Source of the DNA: a virus
Direction: 5' to 3' (one strand)
Length of the DNA: 64,000 nt
Virus record (IMG/VR): IMGVR_UViG_3300013014_000024
Location: 1 to 64,000 of that record
Shown here: in pieces, positions 26,043 to 63,561 of the stretch
Numbering within the stretch: the first letter of the stretch is position 1
Layout: each line of letters begins with the position of its first letter
Position numbers and translations under genes: made by a program
Notes under the pieces: generated by a model
The model's database searches: none
What the model saw: only the letters and a program-made list of their open reading frames with translations
Told to the model about the DNA's origin: nothing

Positions 26043-26690
26043 TTACAAAAATTTAAATATATATCCTTTAGTTTGTTTCCGTTTACCATTTGCAACTAAA
26101 CTAGCTTTAGAATTATATTTTATATCTATTCCTAAATGTCTAAGAGCATCATTTAAAGAATTAAAAATTCCAATTTCTTCACCACTAACATAAGTTATAA
26201 CTAATGTTTTTTTTGCTTGTCCAGATTTAATTGCACCTAAAATACGATTACGTATAGATTCCTCAGACGCTTTTCTTCCCTTTTTATATATTCCTCTTTT
26301 AATTTTTATTTCTTCACTTTGTTTTTTTCCATATTGAGGATTTTTACTACCTAGTTTTTGTTGTCTTAATTTTTCTTTGGTAAAAGACGTTCTTTTACAA
26401 TTCCAAATTCCATCTCCACCATCTGTCATATTACATAATAAACCAGTATTTAAATCTTTTCTACCATATAATTTTATAAATTCCTGTTCTTTAACTGATG
26501 CCTCATCTTTTGTTATATTATCAAATAAAATATCAACCTCAATATTTGTTTTTTTATAAATTTTTTTCCAAATTTCATTCCTTTTTTCCACATCGTATGC
26601 ACGTAAATAATTTTTTTTATTACCAATACCGATGTAAAATGGTTCATTTTTATCTAGTCTTATATGTCTATATACATACCAATTGTTCAT
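26043..26690 (-). CDS. GIY-YIG homing endonuclease with NUMOD3-type motif
   Basis: N-terminal domain NWYVYRHIRLDKNEPFYIGI is the GIY-YIG core (here YVY ... YIG), with a catalytic Arg in the helix and Glu in KEQEFIKLYG. Residues about 110-150 (KLGSKNPQYGKKQSEEIKIK) match NUMOD3 DNA-binding repeats. The C terminus may be a helix-turn-helix module. Freestanding, at the 3' end of the lysis cassette. No intron ends are recognised around it. Confidence 0.85.
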   Translation of the reverse strand: MNNWYVYRHIRLDKNEPFYIGIGNKKNYLRAYDVEKRNEIWKKIYKKTNIEVDILFDNITKDEASVKEQEFIKLYGRKDLNTGLLCNMTDGGDGIWNCKRTSFTKEKLRQQKLGSKNPQYGKKQSEEIKIKRGIYKKGRKASEESIRNRILGAIKSGQAKKTLVITYVSGEEIGIFNSLNDALRHLGIDIKYNSKASLVANGKRKQTKGYIFKFL

Positions 26691-26702
26691 AATTATATGT
26701 AT

Positions 26703-27539
26703 TTAAAATAATAATTTATAAAATTTTTGAAACTCTTGAATACGTTGACTCAACCCAATAGTGCCGCCATTAACACATTTAGATACTGCTGTTATAGCTT
26801 CAGTTGAAGAACCTAAATCACATTTTGGTAAACATCTTTGGAAGAACCAAGCAGCGCTCAATAATGGATATTTTGTTGATACCAAATCAGGATTTGAAAT
26901 AACATCTTCATTTATTGCTTTACCAAAAGCGTTATAGTTATCTTTACCAGTAAGTTGTAAGTGTCCCCTCCCTCTAAATCTATAACCTTCTTTTGTTGCC
27001 TCCGAGCCATTTCCCATTCTACCACCATAAACCCTTGAACCTATTTTTTCAGCTTGTCTTGCGTATGATTCTGCTAAATTTCCAGGAAAATATTTTGAGA
27101 ACGTATTTTTTAAACCGGTGGATGAATAATTCAAATTTTCTTGAACTATTTTAAATCCGCCAGATTCATGACTACATTGAGCCAAAAAATGTGCCAATCT
27201 TAATGGTGTATTAATTTTAAATTTTGATGCCGTATCAGGTATTTGTGCAATAACTGAGTCAGGTATATGACCTTTTAAATTTTTTAGTTTTAACCCACTA
27301 ACACTTGATATTGAAGAAGTTTGAGGTTGTTTTGGTTCGGTTATAATTTGTGGTGGTGGACCAAACATTTTATTCCATGTTTCACTACCCACAATACCAT
27401 CAGGATTTGCGTCATTATCTATTTGCCATTTTTTAACTGCTTTAGCAGTTCCCTGACCAAATACACCATCTGCGGTTAACCCTAATTTTGCTTGGAGTTT
27501 TTTTACGTCATCTCCTTGTGACCCTACTTTAAATAACAT
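26703..27539 (-). CDS. Endolysin: peptidoglycan-binding plus GH19-type domain
   Basis: Residues 1-60 (GSQGDDVKKLQAKLGLTADG, TWNKMFG) form a PG_binding_1 repeat. From about residue 85 the domain is glycoside hydrolase 19-like: LAHFLAQCSHESGGF with the catalytic Glu, then YRFRGRGHLQLTGKDNY, the R-G-R-G-.-.-Q-L-T-G hallmark, and AAWFFQ. It would cleave glycan strands at the end of infection. It lies 5 nt after a holin-like gene. Start set at 27539 where the PG-binding domain begins. Confidence 0.88.
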   Translation of the reverse strand: MLFKVGSQGDDVKKLQAKLGLTADGVFGQGTAKAVKKWQIDNDANPDGIVGSETWNKMFGPPPQIITEPKQPQTSSISSVSGLKLKNLKGHIPDSVIAQIPDTASKFKINTPLRLAHFLAQCSHESGGFKIVQENLNYSSTGLKNTFSKYFPGNLAESYARQAEKIGSRVYGGRMGNGSEATKEGYRFRGRGHLQLTGKDNYNAFGKAINEDVISNPDLVSTKYPLLSAAWFFQRCLPKCDLGSSTEAITAVSKCVNGGTIGLSQRIQEFQKFYKLLF

Positions 27540-27544
27540 ACTTA

Positions 27545-28159
27545 TTAATTTTCTTTGATTATTCCACAAACTAAACACTCTTCCTGTCCGTCACCATCTT
27601 TATCCCCCCAAACGTGGTCGCAATATCTGTGTGCAAAGTATTCGTCTATATCACCATCACCATCCTTATCTATACCGTCCATAGTACCATCACCATCTTC
27701 GTCAATTTCCACTTCGACTTGGGGGGCGACTTGGGGGGAGACTTGGGGGGTATCTTCTGTGGTGAATTGTGGGTCGACTTGGGGGGTACTTTCCATTGCA
27801 TTTTGTATATCTTCAGGTATAATCGGTGTTGGTTCTGGATTTGTTAAATCCATTTGTGAGGTATCTGATAATGAAACACCATCTTCTTCGTCCATTTTTT
27901 GGACCAACATTTTATCTTTATCATTATCTTTAAACCAATAGTCAATTATCTTTCCATAACTACCAATAAAGGCTCCTAATAGTAGGAGAAGTAATTCTTT
28001 CCATTGTTCGGCCATTTCAGTATGCATTGAAATTGCAAAACCAATACCTCCGATTATTCCTAAAAATGTTATTAGAACTGTTATACTAATAAACAATCTC
28101 TTGTTCATTATTGAGGATAATAATTTTTCAAATTCTTTCGGTGATGTTTTCTCTGACAT
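27545..28159 (-). CDS. Holin-like protein with calcium-binding-type tail
   Basis: N-terminal half has two membrane helices (LFISITVLITFLGIIGGIGF; LLLLLLGAFIGSYGKIIDYW). A Pro/Gln/Val-rich linker follows, then Asp-rich loops DEDGDGTMDG, DKDGDGDIDE and DKDGDGQEE, each of the D.D.DG type found in EF-hand, dockerin and thrombospondin-3 repeats, plus three Cys (CDHV, CLVCG). A paralog without this tail is at 30224. TATTTAT box at 28176-28182. Calcium control of the pore is a speculation. Confidence 0.65.
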   Translation of the reverse strand: MSEKTSPKEFEKLLSSIMNKRLFISITVLITFLGIIGGIGFAISMHTEMAEQWKELLLLLLGAFIGSYGKIIDYWFKDNDKDKMLVQKMDEEDGVSLSDTSQMDLTNPEPTPIIPEDIQNAMESTPQVDPQFTTEDTPQVSPQVAPQVEVEIDEDGDGTMDGIDKDGDGDIDEYFAHRYCDHVWGDKDGDGQEECLVCGIIKEN

Positions 28160-28265: not shown

Positions 28266-28661
28266 TTATCTTTTATATCTATCTTCTAATACTTGTAAAC
28301 GAGCTTTAATATCAGCTCTTTCTTGCATTGCATTTTCTTTAACTTCATATATTACGTTGTATAAATCCATTTTCATATCTGACCTAGCTTGCATAGCATT
28401 AGCTCTCAACTGCTCAAGTTCAATTGTAGTCCCTTGTACAGGAATTGCTTTATTTTCTGCATTTACAACTATGGCAACTTTATTTTCTAGCACAGTAATT
28501 TTATCATTCAACACATTTACTTGAGTTAATAGCCATCCGATTGCCGATACACATACTGGAAATAAAATAAAAACTAATTTTTCTACTAAATCGGATTTAC
28601 CTTTATCAATTGCCATTTCTTTTTCTAAATCAATAGTTCTTTGTTCTTGATTTGTTGCCAT
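28266..28661 (-). CDS. Coiled-coil membrane protein in lysis cassette
   Basis: One membrane helix (LVFILFPVCVSAIGWLLTQV) between a charged N terminus and a long C-terminal coiled coil (ITVLENKVAIVVNAENK, then two near-copies of NAMQ(A/E)R(S/A)D(M/I)K). Start at 28661. It sits between the PAS protein and the holin, so a lysis-related or signalling role is likely. No family is recognised. Confidence 0.6.
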   Translation of the reverse strand: MATNQEQRTIDLEKEMAIDKGKSDLVEKLVFILFPVCVSAIGWLLTQVNVLNDKITVLENKVAIVVNAENKAIPVQGTTIELEQLRANAMQARSDMKMDLYNVIYEVKENAMQERADIKARLQVLEDRYKR

Positions 28662-28665
28662 TTTA

Positions 28666-29781
28666 TTATTTTTTGTCTTTTTTATCATCTGATGTGGCGT
28701 ACTTAATACCCATAATTGTGCCAACTATTGAGAAGGCGTTTGTAAGTAATACGCTGAACATATTACTCCAAGTTGAACCAATTATTTGAGTATCTTTCTG
28801 TGTAAGAAGTGCAAATGAGTACATTATTGTAGTTATGAATCCAACACTAATAATAACTCCCAATGCACATTTAACGATAATTTTTATGAGTTCGTTTTGA
28901 CTCTTTTTAAGAGTTGCATCTAAATCGTTCAAAGCAACATTTTTCTCCTTTTCGATGGCATCTTTTAGTTTCTCCGATTCCTTTAACTGTAGTTGCAAAT
29001 CTTTTGATAATAAATCAATTTCCTTTTTATTATTTACCGATTCAGTAACGTCAGTCGCAATTTTAATTACATTTGTGACATTTCCTTTACTATCAAAGAC
29101 AGGATTGTATGTTGCTTGTAAATAGATAGTAGAACCATCTACTTTTTTTCTTTCAAATATCCCATCTAAAAATTTACCATTATTTAAGTTCTGCCAAAAC
29201 TTAATATACTCATCGGATTTTGAATATTCATAACTGACAAAAATACTATGGTGTTTTCCAACAACTTGATTTTTTTCATTAGATTTGAAACCCATTGTTT
29301 CTAAGAAAATAGAATTAGCATCCAAAATAAAACCATTCATATCAAAAGTAATAGTGGCAGTACTTTTGTTAATTGCGTCCACTTGTTTTTTACTATTAAC
29401 AATTGCAGTAATGTCAGTAGCAACTTTCATTACTTTAGTAATTGTACCACTCTCATCAAAAATAGGGTTGTATGTCGCCTGTAAGTTGATAAGACTACCA
29501 TCTCTTTTCCTTCTTTCAAATTCTCCTTTATAATACTTACCACTTCTTAATATGTCCCAAAACTTTTCGTACTCCAACGACCTTGCATAATCTTCACATA
29601 CAAAAATACTATGATGTTTACCAACAATTTCCGCGTGCTCATCTTCCCCATATCCCATTGCTTTCAAAAAAATCGCATTAACACCCAAAATTTTTCCAGT
29701 AAGGTCAAAATAAATAAGGGCGTTACTTCTATTAATCGCCTCCATCCTACTCAATAACTCTTCTTTGGATAGATTTTTCAT
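28666..29781 (-). CDS. Tandem PAS-domain protein with C-terminal membrane region
   Basis: Two PAS domains (about residues 13-125 and 135-247) of the type found in chemotaxis-like sensors: each has a KHHSIFV motif, then GKY/GKF..G.F.R....DG, then LQATYNP(I/V)FD and an ATD(I/V)T end. A coiled coil (LQLQLKESEKLKDAIEKEKN) and two membrane helices (ALGVIISVGFITTIMYSFAL; VLLTNAFSIVGTIMGIKY) follow. PAS domains bind small ligands or cofactors, so this may sense a cell condition and act on the membrane in the lysis cassette. An alternative start is 29826. Confidence 0.8.
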   Translation of the reverse strand: MKNLSKEELLSRMEAINRSNALIYFDLTGKILGVNAIFLKAMGYGEDEHAEIVGKHHSIFVCEDYARSLEYEKFWDILRSGKYYKGEFERRKRDGSLINLQATYNPIFDESGTITKVMKVATDITAIVNSKKQVDAINKSTATITFDMNGFILDANSIFLETMGFKSNEKNQVVGKHHSIFVSYEYSKSDEYIKFWQNLNNGKFLDGIFERKKVDGSTIYLQATYNPVFDSKGNVTNVIKIATDVTESVNNKKEIDLLSKDLQLQLKESEKLKDAIEKEKNVALNDLDATLKKSQNELIKIIVKCALGVIISVGFITTIMYSFALLTQKDTQIIGSTWSNMFSVLLTNAFSIVGTIMGIKYATSDDKKDKK

Positions 29782-30223: not shown

Positions 30224-30535
30224 ATGAAAAAAAATACAGATGGTCACTCGTTCAGAAGATTGTTAAGTTCAGTGATGAAAAAAAGATTAGTTATTAGTGC
30301 GATTGTACTTTTAACTTTTTTAGGATTGATATTAGGAATTGGGTTTGCGATATCTTCAAATACAACAATGTCCGAACAATGGAAAGAACTACTTCTTTTA
30401 ATGTTGGGAGCATTTATTGGTAGTTACGGTAAAATTATTGATTATTGGTTTAGTGACACGGATAAAGATAAAATGTTGGTCCAAAAAATGGATGAAGAAG
30501 ATGGAACTACCTTATTAAAAGAAGATAAGAAATAA
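30224..30535 (+). CDS. Holin-like protein, tail-less paralog
   Basis: Closely similar to the first 105 residues of the product of 27545: RRLLSSVMKKRLVISAIVLL, EQWKELLLLMLGAFIGSYGK and DKDKMLVQKMDEEDG are shared. It lacks the Pro-rich linker and the Asp-rich loops. Two membrane helices. It may be the plain pore, or an antagonist of the tailed form. Confidence 0.65.
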   Translation: MKKNTDGHSFRRLLSSVMKKRLVISAIVLLTFLGLILGIGFAISSNTTMSEQWKELLLLMLGAFIGSYGKIIDYWFSDTDKDKMLVQKMDEEDGTTLLKEDKK

Positions 30536-31713: not shown

Positions 31714-32781
31714 TTAAGCTCTCATATTAGGAACTGGTTCTGGTGGTGGTATAAAATTGTTGTTTAAATTGTTGTTTGTAACGGTAAGTCGGTCAGTAAA
31801 ATCTCCATTAAAAGTTACGGCTAAATTAGCATCAAAAGTTGTGCTTATGGGTGGAGCTATGTATAATGTGGTAGTACCGGGAGTATCCGCTACACTAAGT
31901 TCTCCTTCGGCTATTAAGTTATCATTATAATAATTTTCTTCAAGCCTTATTCTGGATTCATTGTAAATGACACCACAATAATTACAAACTTTAATTCTCA
32001 TATCTTTATCCAAATACTCTGAATTAGTTTTTTCTGAATTAAGAATTTCTTTAATAATTGAATACATATAACCATCAATATTGAGGTTCATAGAATCAAC
32101 TCTATTATCTGACGCAGTCCAAAAAGTTACTCCTTCTTCGTCGCCATCTAATGCTTTAAATGACGCAAACTTATATCCAGTTTTTTTATTAATATAATAC
32201 GCCAAAATACCTCTATTCCAATATTTTGCAAAATATTGTTTTTCGTTTTTAAATGTTGTACACCATTTAGTACCGGCTCCGTATTTTATTGAAGATTCAA
32301 AAGTTAAAGGTAAAACAACAACCCAATTTTCATCATCGTACACCTTTTGTATTTGACTTTCCATTTCTTTTTCAATCTCTAGTAAAGATGAGAGAGAAAG
32401 TGCTGAACTTATATCATCAAATGTTGAGTATTTACATACGTCATTTTCCGGAATTATTCCTTTTTCCATGTGATGAATAAAACTTTTAATGTCTTCAAAT
32501 TGGGATGGAGAATAATATTGAAATAACATATCTCTTATTAAAAATAACTGAGATTTAGAAAGGTTTTTATCGTCAACTCCTACCATTTTTGAGATTTCAC
32601 CTAATTCTCTTATAGAACTTTTGTCTTTTACCACATTATCGTCCCTATATCTTTTTGAGAATAATTTACAAAAAAGTTGTAAATATTTGTTTGTATTAGT
32701 TGGGTCCATCATTTGAAAAATATCAATTAGGGACATGTCTAACTCAGGAAATTGTTTTTTTAAAGTATCTATTCTTGACAT
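31714..32781 (-). CDS. WCT-motif protein, shorter relative
   Basis: The centre holds SSIKYGAGTKWCTTFKNEKQ followed by GILAYYINKKTGYKFASFKA; the same block, (Y)G..T(K/R)WCTT......YF..Y..G.L.Y.I, is in the protein at 62092. I know this motif as a recurring domain in phage proteins but not its activity. The N-terminal 120 residues are helical. The last 80 residues switch to a beta-rich, Thr/Pro-rich tail (FDANLAVTFNGDFTDRLTVT) that looks like a separate adhesin- or collagen-like end. Confidence 0.55.
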   Translation of the reverse strand: MSRIDTLKKQFPELDMSLIDIFQMMDPTNTNKYLQLFCKLFSKRYRDDNVVKDKSSIRELGEISKMVGVDDKNLSKSQLFLIRDMLFQYYSPSQFEDIKSFIHHMEKGIIPENDVCKYSTFDDISSALSLSSLLEIEKEMESQIQKVYDDENWVVVLPLTFESSIKYGAGTKWCTTFKNEKQYFAKYWNRGILAYYINKKTGYKFASFKALDGDEEGVTFWTASDNRVDSMNLNIDGYMYSIIKEILNSEKTNSEYLDKDMRIKVCNYCGVIYNESRIRLEENYYNDNLIAEGELSVADTPGTTTLYIAPPISTTFDANLAVTFNGDFTDRLTVTNNNLNNNFIPPPEPVPNMRA

Positions 32782-61870: not shown

Positions 61871-62095
61871 ATGGAGAAAAACAAGTTTACGTGGCAGAGA
61901 ACGTTTCAAGACAACCTGTCACAAATATTTCTAATGTTAGCACTATTTTTCAACCCATTCGGGTTCGATGCCGTTCAATATTCTATAATATCATGGACAG
62001 GAAGTTTATGGAAAGCCAACTTCGTTTTGTATTGTATTGCGGGATTCTTTTTTGGTCTTTATTTCTACTTTCGCAAGTTATCTAACAAACCTTAA
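61871..62095 (+). CDS. Small membrane protein, 74 aa
   Basis: MEKNKFTWQRTFQDNLSQIF followed by two hydrophobic segments (LMLALFFNPFGFDAVQYSII; FVLYCIAGFFFGLYFYF) and a basic tail. Another frame overlaps at 61864 but its composition is less protein-like. It overlaps the opposite-strand gene end by 4 nt. Unknown. Confidence 0.5.
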   Translation: MEKNKFTWQRTFQDNLSQIFLMLALFFNPFGFDAVQYSIISWTGSLWKANFVLYCIAGFFFGLYFYFRKLSNKP

Positions 62096-63561
62096 AGTGC
62101 TTTAAGTTCACCGTTTTTATATGCTTCAAAATTAGGTCCTTTCATTAAAAAAAATTGGTTTCCTATTTTTCTATATTTCAAAATGCCAGCATTTTTTGCT
62201 GATGCAAAAAAGGATGAAAAATGACCTCTCCATTTTGAGGATTGATGCCAATTATTCATACCTTGTTGGGAGTACCAAACTGAACCATTCTCTGAAACCT
62301 TTCCTTCAAGTTTACCAATCTCAACAAGAAAATCTAACTTTGTTCCAATTTTTCCTTCATCTAACCAATCAACTAACTTTTTAATCAAACCTTTATTTTT
62401 TTCAAAAGTATATCCGTAATGGAGTCTATCAGGTGTCCATACGGGTGTCTTATGAATATGTTGTAAAAGAATTGAATTATTTTCTAAGATTCGTCTAACA
62501 GAATTTAAGATGTAAGTTGCTATTGTAGAACTAATATTAGTTGTGTGATGTACAATAACATTAAAACTACCCCCAAAACCATCAAAACCTAAATCAACTT
62601 TAAATTCTGAACCAACGTCACCAAAGTTATAATTAATCTCTAAACCGTATGACGAATCTCTTTTTCTTAAATTAGCACTAATAATAATTAAATATTCATC
62701 CAACAAACCTTGTTGTTTTTCTTTTCTTTCATATATCTTCAAACCAGAATGAACTATGAAGGTGTTTTCATAATGGTCCATAAGTTCAAATCCGTTTATT
62801 GTTGTCGTTATTATAACATCAGAAATTATAATACTTTCAGTAAAAACATCGTTTGTTGTAAGTGATTGTTTTATTTTATCGACTGTTTCATCTGGATGAG
62901 CATCATCGTGATATTCTTTAATGGTTTTCCACATTTCAGAATATGCATTTTTAAAAAATACTTTTTCTCTACTACTTAAAGTGCTATCGGCAGCATCGTA
63001 GAATGTTTCCTCACCTTGATTACTAATGTGAATTGCAATTTTATATAGATTTTCATCCATATCTTTTTTTGAAATTACATAGTAAAGACCTTGATTACCT
63101 GAAGTATACCTGTTAAAGTAATCATCGTTATTTTTATTTGTTGTACACCATCTTGTTTTTGAACCGTATTTACAAGATGCCGCAAAGTTTTGAGGTTCAA
63201 CAACAACAAATTTATCATCTTCGTATATTTTTTTTGATTTTGGTTTCTCTTTGTTTCTAGTGTATTCACTAATTCTTGAAATCAAATCAAAAAATCCTGT
63301 ATAATCATTTATGTCTTTTTTTTCTAAATTGTTTTGTACTTTATCAAACTTTTGTAATGCCTCAATTACCTCTTCAAGTTCTCTAAATGAATAATTAGAA
63401 TTTAAATTTTTTAAAATAAAATCGGCGTATTTGTAGTTAGTTTGCTTAATGAATTGGTCCGCAAAAACGTTACTAAGACCCTCATCTGAGAATTTTGATT
63501 CGTATTTTTTCATGAGGTCTTCTTTTCTTCCCTCCCTTAATAAAATGGTCATGAATTTCAT
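62092..63561 (-). CDS. WCT-motif protein, 489 aa
   Basis: N terminus MKFMTILLREGRKEDLMKKY recurs in phage head-type proteins and lies 5 nt after a minus-strand TATTTAT box. At about residue 130 AASCKYGSKTRWCTTNKNND followed by YFNRYTSGNQGLYYVISKKD matches the product of 31714 (GTKWCT). A long beta-rich second half follows, and a final 60-residue winged-helix-like end (WYSQQGMNNWHQSSKWRGHF). Role unknown. Confidence 0.6.
   Translation of the reverse strand: MKFMTILLREGRKEDLMKKYESKFSDEGLSNVFADQFIKQTNYKYADFILKNLNSNYSFRELEEVIEALQKFDKVQNNLEKKDINDYTGFFDLISRISEYTRNKEKPKSKKIYEDDKFVVVEPQNFAASCKYGSKTRWCTTNKNNDDYFNRYTSGNQGLYYVISKKDMDENLYKIAIHISNQGEETFYDAADSTLSSREKVFFKNAYSEMWKTIKEYHDDAHPDETVDKIKQSLTTNDVFTESIIISDVIITTTINGFELMDHYENTFIVHSGLKIYERKEKQQGLLDEYLIIISANLRKRDSSYGLEINYNFGDVGSEFKVDLGFDGFGGSFNVIVHHTTNISSTIATYILNSVRRILENNSILLQHIHKTPVWTPDRLHYGYTFEKNKGLIKKLVDWLDEGKIGTKLDFLVEIGKLEGKVSENGSVWYSQQGMNNWHQSSKWRGHFSSFFASAKNAGILKYRKIGNQFFLMKGPNFEAYKNGELKAL

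Follow-up and report, generated by a model that had tools for sequence, protein, structure and literature searches.

Why would a phage place a protein with two PAS domains and a membrane hairpin among its lysis genes, and what might such a protein do there? The usual account of lysis timing is that a holin builds up until it reaches a threshold, and to our knowledge few natural signals for this timing are known. The gene in question lies in positions 1 to 64,000 of IMG/VR record IMGVR_UViG_3300013014_000024 (this 64-kb stretch is the window), and the 97.7-kb source record carries terminase, portal and major head protein genes, indicating a tailed phage. An earlier reading of the sequence (the original prediction) had proposed that the protein senses a cell state and sets lysis timing. 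The gene, its parts and the neighbouring lysis genes are as follows.

28666..29781, minus strand: PAS-PAS-coiled coil-TM hairpin protein, 371 aa (open reading frame and start, Pfam PAS, AlphaFold2, 203 viral stretches with a relative)
29413..29724, minus strand: PAS domain 1, residues 20-123, with H57 and W75 at FAD-contact positions
29050..29361, minus strand: PAS domain 2, residues 141-244, with H178 and W196 at FAD-contact positions
28888..29046, minus strand: signal helix and coiled coil, residues 246-298, running on into TM1 (AlphaFold2 helix 246-327)
28801..28887, minus strand: TM1, residues 299-327 (AlphaFold2 model and sequence; start of the membrane part set by hydrophobicity)
28693..28791, minus strand: TM2, residues 331-363, invariant block TQIIGSTWSNMFSVLLTNAFSIVGTIMGIKYAT (identical in 80/80 loci)
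28266..28661, minus strand: coiled-coil protein with one N-terminal TM helix (no family match in Pfam or PHROG)
27545..28159, minus strand: holin-like protein with two TM helices, a Pro/acidic tail, DxDGDG repeats and a Cys/His cluster (topology, weak phrog_1544)
26703..27539, minus strand: endolysin, PG_binding_1 and GH19 (Pfam 6.4e-12 and 4.7e-10; phrog_181 endolysin 1.4e-61; ATG at 27539)

The sensor gene runs on the minus strand from an ATG at 29781 to a stop at 28666. Pfam finds two PAS stretches in its product (PAS_3, 2.7e-23; PAS_9, 4.4e-20), PAS_3 scoring 82.5 bits against a curated cut-off of 25.6, and two motifs occur twice each, KHHSIFV (residues 55-61 and 176-182) and LQATYNP[IV]FD. 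The AlphaFold2 model, computed from 18 aligned sequences (the window protein and viral relatives), has a mean pLDDT of 82 (about 90 in the PAS domains) and contains two confident PAS folds, a single unbroken helix (246-327) in which the signal helix and coiled coil run on into TM1, and then TM2 as a helix of its own (331-363). The open reading frame call, Pfam, the motif repeats and the model thus bear out the anatomy given in the original prediction (tandem PAS, coiled coil, two membrane helices), and the structure prediction it had suggested for the PAS pockets returns two PAS folds. In the model, a signal could pass along the unbroken helix from the second PAS domain to TM1. TM1 is preceded and TM2 followed by positive charges, a pattern that points to a hairpin with both ends in the cytoplasm and a very short turn on the outside.

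A scan of IMG/VR with the sensor protein found 203 stretches that encode a relative, of which we read 80 loci (the PAS-seeded set); all data come from metagenomic contigs. TM2 (33 residues) is identical in all 80 of these loci, at third codon positions that are 62% identical, indicating strong purifying selection on the protein. The number of viral relatives and the conservation of TM2 at this level of third-position identity show that the open reading frame did not arise by chance, and together with the Pfam match they rule out loose homology as well. The family has no Pfam entry and, beyond rejected hits, no match in 50,697 phage records. One hit, MT836939, was rejected as a phage relative (a PAS-PAS-MCP gene on an apparently bacterial scaffold), and two Listeria 'phage' matches are weak and partial, in unannotated records. 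Among deposited proteins, a structure search returned viral kinases that are uncharacterised and, in a protein from an uncultured phage, a stretch of 49% identity, so relatives are present in databases without a described function. As a separate observation, MT836939.1 (L281) is titled 'Bacteriophage sp.', encodes a GGDEF/EAL protein as well as the PAS-PAS-MCP chemoreceptor, and looks bacterial.

The original prediction had described transcription from the PAS gene toward a coiled-coil membrane gene, a holin-like gene and a GH19 endolysin gene; all lie on one strand in that order, and Pfam and phrog_181 support the endolysin. The coiled-coil gene starts 4 nt past the stop of the PAS gene, and its product has a topology that may be i-spanin-like. 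For the product of 27545..28159 the sole family signal is a weak phrog_1544 match (E 0.07), and the label 'holin-like' therefore reflects topology and position. This gene has a paralogue on the other side of the PAS gene and on the opposite strand (30224-30535, plus strand; 74% identical over 94 aa), relative to which it carries an extra tail with DxDGDG calcium-loop-like repeats and the Cys/His cluster. Neither paralogue was found in the other loci read, nor the 30224-30535 protein in phage records. A NUMOD-type homing endonuclease gene (26043-26690, minus strand; phrog_314, 1.3e-18) lies directly behind the endolysin gene, and a scan for promoters and terminators gave nothing above chance.

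We evaluated whether this neighbourhood recurs, using 45 loci that are non-redundant at 95%, 42 of which were scored for neighbours. The flanks of PAS-gene loci are otherwise divergent, and an endolysin or holin-like gene nearly always adjoins the PAS gene: an endolysin gene lies within 1 kb in 36/42 loci, compared with 81/568 (14%) of other genes at the same loci (p = 2e-22). The possibility that the PAS gene lies outside lysis cassettes in all relatives, which the original prediction had named as damaging to it, is accordingly rejected for the PAS form. Pairing with holins, for which it had suggested a survey, is also common (a holin-like gene within 1 kb in 27/42 loci, compared with 46/568 other genes of the same loci). 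One cluster of these holin-like proteins matches Phage_holin_4_1 and phrog_199; the other, which has no family match, owes its name to size and topology. Several kinds of endolysin are represented (GH19, Peptidase_M15_3, Phage_lysozyme and phrog_33083-like), and they stand on either side of the PAS gene, depending on the locus.

Is the hairpin simply a holin? Profile searches found no detectable relation of the hairpin to any named family, and neither the hairpin nor the full protein matches a Pfam or PHROG holin family. Kinship with the neighbouring holins was rejected (hhalign probability <1%), as was phrog_1544 as a named relative (weak matches only, best E 3.5e-4). The protein stands outside the holin families tested and resembles a sensor of the Aer type with a membrane output attached. 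We consider it quite improbable that the hairpin itself is a holin or pinholin, with the PAS domains acting as a dimerisation scaffold and sensing nothing; by general knowledge, two TM helices, a short turn, a Lys-rich C-terminus and an endolysin neighbour do resemble a class II holin, but a separate holin-like gene so often stands within 1 kb (the 27 loci above) that no hairpin is needed for that purpose alone. A different role is rather unlikely though it carries real weight: the protein could be a late membrane effector for a task other than lysis (for example, excluding superinfection or regulating the energetics of the host membrane), placed beside lysis genes because late membrane genes cluster. 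The absence of a relation between the hairpin and known holins fits such an effector, but the adjoining of PAS-type genes to several unrelated kinds of endolysin, far over background, does not. The reading that we prefer, a sensor whose output acts on lysis, most likely holds at the output end because of these gene neighbours.

What the sensor might read is indicated by its pockets. The best fold match of the protein is MmoS, a tandem-PAS FAD redox sensor (3ewk, E 2.7e-16), and alignment to Aer (8DIK) and MmoS (3EWK) places H57 and H178 at the flavin-stacking His (Aer H53) and W75 and W196 at the F-alpha Trp (residue roles in Aer from PMC9668731). In all 117 relatives examined, the PAS domains retain both of these FAD-pocket residues, the Trp and the His; in the alignment to Aer and MmoS, the flavin H-bonding Asn (Aer N85) is not kept, Arg standing in its place (R90 and R211), and the position of Aer Arg115 is Ala in the window PAS domains. 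Pockets too degenerate to bind a ligand, the other weakness named in the original prediction, are not what we find. In a classification of PAS domains, Trp is the primary determinant of FAD binding, the Asn is kept in some FAD-binding clusters, and each FAD cluster has at least two of Trp, His and Asn (PMC10468136); the window domains, with Trp and His, follow this rule. BdlA and McpS, which also have tandem PAS domains, are predicted FAD binders (PMC8694187). Because the Trp and His are kept, the two-of-three rule holds and BdlA and McpS are likewise predicted to bind FAD, we take FAD as the leading guess rather than as a result: the PAS pair probably binds FAD and probably senses the cell's redox or energy state. 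The retention of cofactor-contact residues in every PAS domain also argues against a scaffold that senses nothing.

Several known sensors resemble the protein in part. Aer, the aerotaxis and energy receptor of Escherichia coli, pairs a PAS domain of the FAD type, in the cytoplasm, with a membrane hairpin. The window protein shares this combination, and the His and Trp of the FAD pocket align (PMC9668731), but it has two PAS domains, no HAMP or MCP domain, and a hairpin that is C-terminal and invariant, and it lacks the Asn and Arg115 of the FAD site. MmoS is similar in its tandem PAS domains, of which PAS-A alone binds FAD (PMC8694187), and differs in feeding a kinase. The PAS-PAS-MCP chemoreceptors BdlA and McpS have tandem PAS domains of the same HH..F...W type (42.5% identity to the one on MT836939), whereas the window protein has the phage membrane hairpin in place of the MCP output, PAS domains being the only ones that Pfam finds. 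That chemoreceptor is the closest match in phage records, which could hint at a captured decoy, a truncated receptor of the BdlA/McpS type that disturbs host aerotaxis or biofilm signalling; this is hardly credible, given that Pfam finds no MCP or HAMP domain, that the invariant part is the phage hairpin and that linkage to lysis genes would be left unexplained.

The hairpin also occurs in a second architecture, which we found by seeking the TM2 block at the DNA level. The N-terminal part ahead of the block is of three kinds: a pair of PAS domains, a single PAS domain, or a non-PAS domain of about 70 aa that we name LEGN. At LEGN loci the gene order is a histidine kinase gene upstream (two TM helices plus variable PAS or GAF domains), a single-domain response regulator gene and then the LEGN-hairpin gene. 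In a test free of the motif, a scan of IMG/VR with the response regulator alone returned at least 549 stretches encoding a relative, and among the best 80 of these regulator-seeded loci the hairpin gene is present in 78, the other two ending just past the regulator at contig ends. The catalytic parts are intact: D9, D10, D63 and K116 of the receiver domain (acidic pair, phospho-Asp and Lys; Response_reg 4.4e-8) are invariant in 16 regulators, and a pattern search of 100 kinases, which match HATPase_c, found the H box and G2 in 100, the N box in 99 and G1 in 92. The model of the LEGN protein has one long helix (37-150) and the hairpin, as in the PAS form. The hairpin is therefore an output module common to the PAS form and to a phage-encoded kinase-regulator pair in sister phages, which the original prediction had missed. 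Feeding a mere scaffold from an intact kinase and regulator would be pointless, a further argument against the hairpin as a holin with inert PAS domains.

The two architectures are kept apart in the records examined. Each virus record has exactly one hairpin gene (20/20), a profile search found the regulator in none of 15 PAS-type records, and no kinase or regulator was found elsewhere in PAS-type records; the profile search is valid, since the same profile gives a match in a sample of Bacteroidota genomes (1/296). In a tree of the coiled coil and hairpin (112 columns, many forks unresolved), a single change with support of 99 separates LEGN from PAS types, and one-PAS and two-PAS forms interchange several times. 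Such easy switching of PAS number is what a dimerisation scaffold would allow. Because the set seeded with the TM2 motif is biased for TM2 conservation in the LEGN class, we claim invariance of TM2 for the PAS-seeded set only, and in effectors found through the regulator TM2 is more variable. The link to lysis is weaker for the kinase type than for the PAS form: among loci with enough flank, 16/27 have a recognised lysis gene within 3.5 kb (an endolysin gene in 7). The remaining 11/27, in a class that often adjoins tail or structural genes, speak for a late effector with another task; their lysis genes may have gone unrecognised, or their role may be a different one. DUF5675 genes recur near the kinase-regulator-hairpin genes (8/80 loci; for example, L195 2946-3416).

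Relatives of the regulator are rare in bacterial genomes, occurring on three contigs in the GTDB collection, one of which (L275) carries the viral hairpin. On a Bacteroidetes contig (L276, 5709-9090), the kinase and regulator genes are followed by a third gene in which LEGN (76.7 bits) is fused to HisKA and HATPase_c, with no hairpin; because LEGN is joined here to a kinase instead, it looks like a signal-input domain able to serve different outputs, in a module common to phages and bacteria. A further Bacteroidetes contig (L277, 5032-8432) has a kinase and regulator close to the phage ones and is without a third gene of the LEGN kind. A single query found no hairpin relatives in bacterial genomes, and the effector profile matched 1/395 Bacteroidota genomes, through the LEGN part only. 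To judge from these bacterial relatives, the host phylum is probably Bacteroidota.

We propose that the window protein couples a tandem PAS sensor in the cytoplasm directly to a membrane hairpin specific to phages. Its two PAS domains would bind FAD and sense the redox or energy state of the cell, and their state would travel through one continuous helix to TM1 and the invariant TM2; the hairpin would then affect the moment at which the adjoining lysis proteins act, either through the holin or as part of the membrane lesion. A relay in sister phages would reach the same hairpin from the histidine kinase through the single-domain response regulator, which when phosphorylated would bind LEGN as a docking domain. 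Most simply read, a single output would be served by either of two inputs, the built-in PAS pair or the phosphorylated regulator. We give a redox or energy PAS sensor acting on lysis through the hairpin, with a kinase-relay counterpart in sister phages, an even chance of being right. The sensor-hairpin adjoins lysis genes and sister phages would drive the hairpin by a two-component relay, so these phages may check on the state of their host before they lyse it. What stands of the original prediction is a sensor with its pockets kept and its linkage to lysis genes; control of lysis timing and redox sensing keep their conditional status, the lysis link of the kinase type being the weaker one.

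Phage holin-antiholin control, as in T4 T/RI, likewise involves a membrane protein of the lysis cassette that may respond to a signal. We found no sequence relation to such proteins, and the sensor here is a cytoplasmic PAS pair or a kinase relay. The kinases (HATPase_c) and Response_reg proteins of the sister phages, with catalytic residues kept, are those of two-component systems, which differ in that these are phage-encoded and in that their output would be LEGN on a membrane hairpin instead of DNA binding or a motor. As summarised in PMC10468136 (citing Silpe and Bassler 2019), VqmA of phage VP882 is a phage-borne PAS-family sensor tied to a lysis decision; it is a DNA-binding lysis-lysogeny regulator, whereas the window protein is a membrane protein in a lysis cassette. 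Sensor and two-component signalling are known in themselves; a membrane-hairpin output has no described precedent for phages in the open-access literature, where we found nothing relevant on phage PAS, kinase or lysis sensors. It is possible, and we suggest it tentatively, that a phage-owned pathway of one protein (PAS-hairpin) or three (kinase-regulator-hairpin) reads host redox or energy and decides when the hairpin permits lysis. This would be the first phage-encoded two-component system in control of lysis, and the presence of the sensor-hairpin in hundreds of viral contigs, with a relay on the same hairpin, would open signal-controlled lysis to direct testing. The work also defines a family, a single-copy, strongly conserved phage protein without a Pfam entry.

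Other features of the window were recorded in passing. A short repeated motif like LTESELVQIIKKIINE / LKESDLNRLVKKIISE occurs in several unrelated proteins of this phage (window 31355-31672, plus strand; L083 12464-12928 and 12930-13673, minus strand). The window proteins 31714-32781 and 62092-63561 (both minus strand) match the same uncharacterised families, phrog_28193 and phrog_17056. Fourteen tRNA genes lie within 33069-63676 of the window, most of them clustered at 54.8-58.7 kb.
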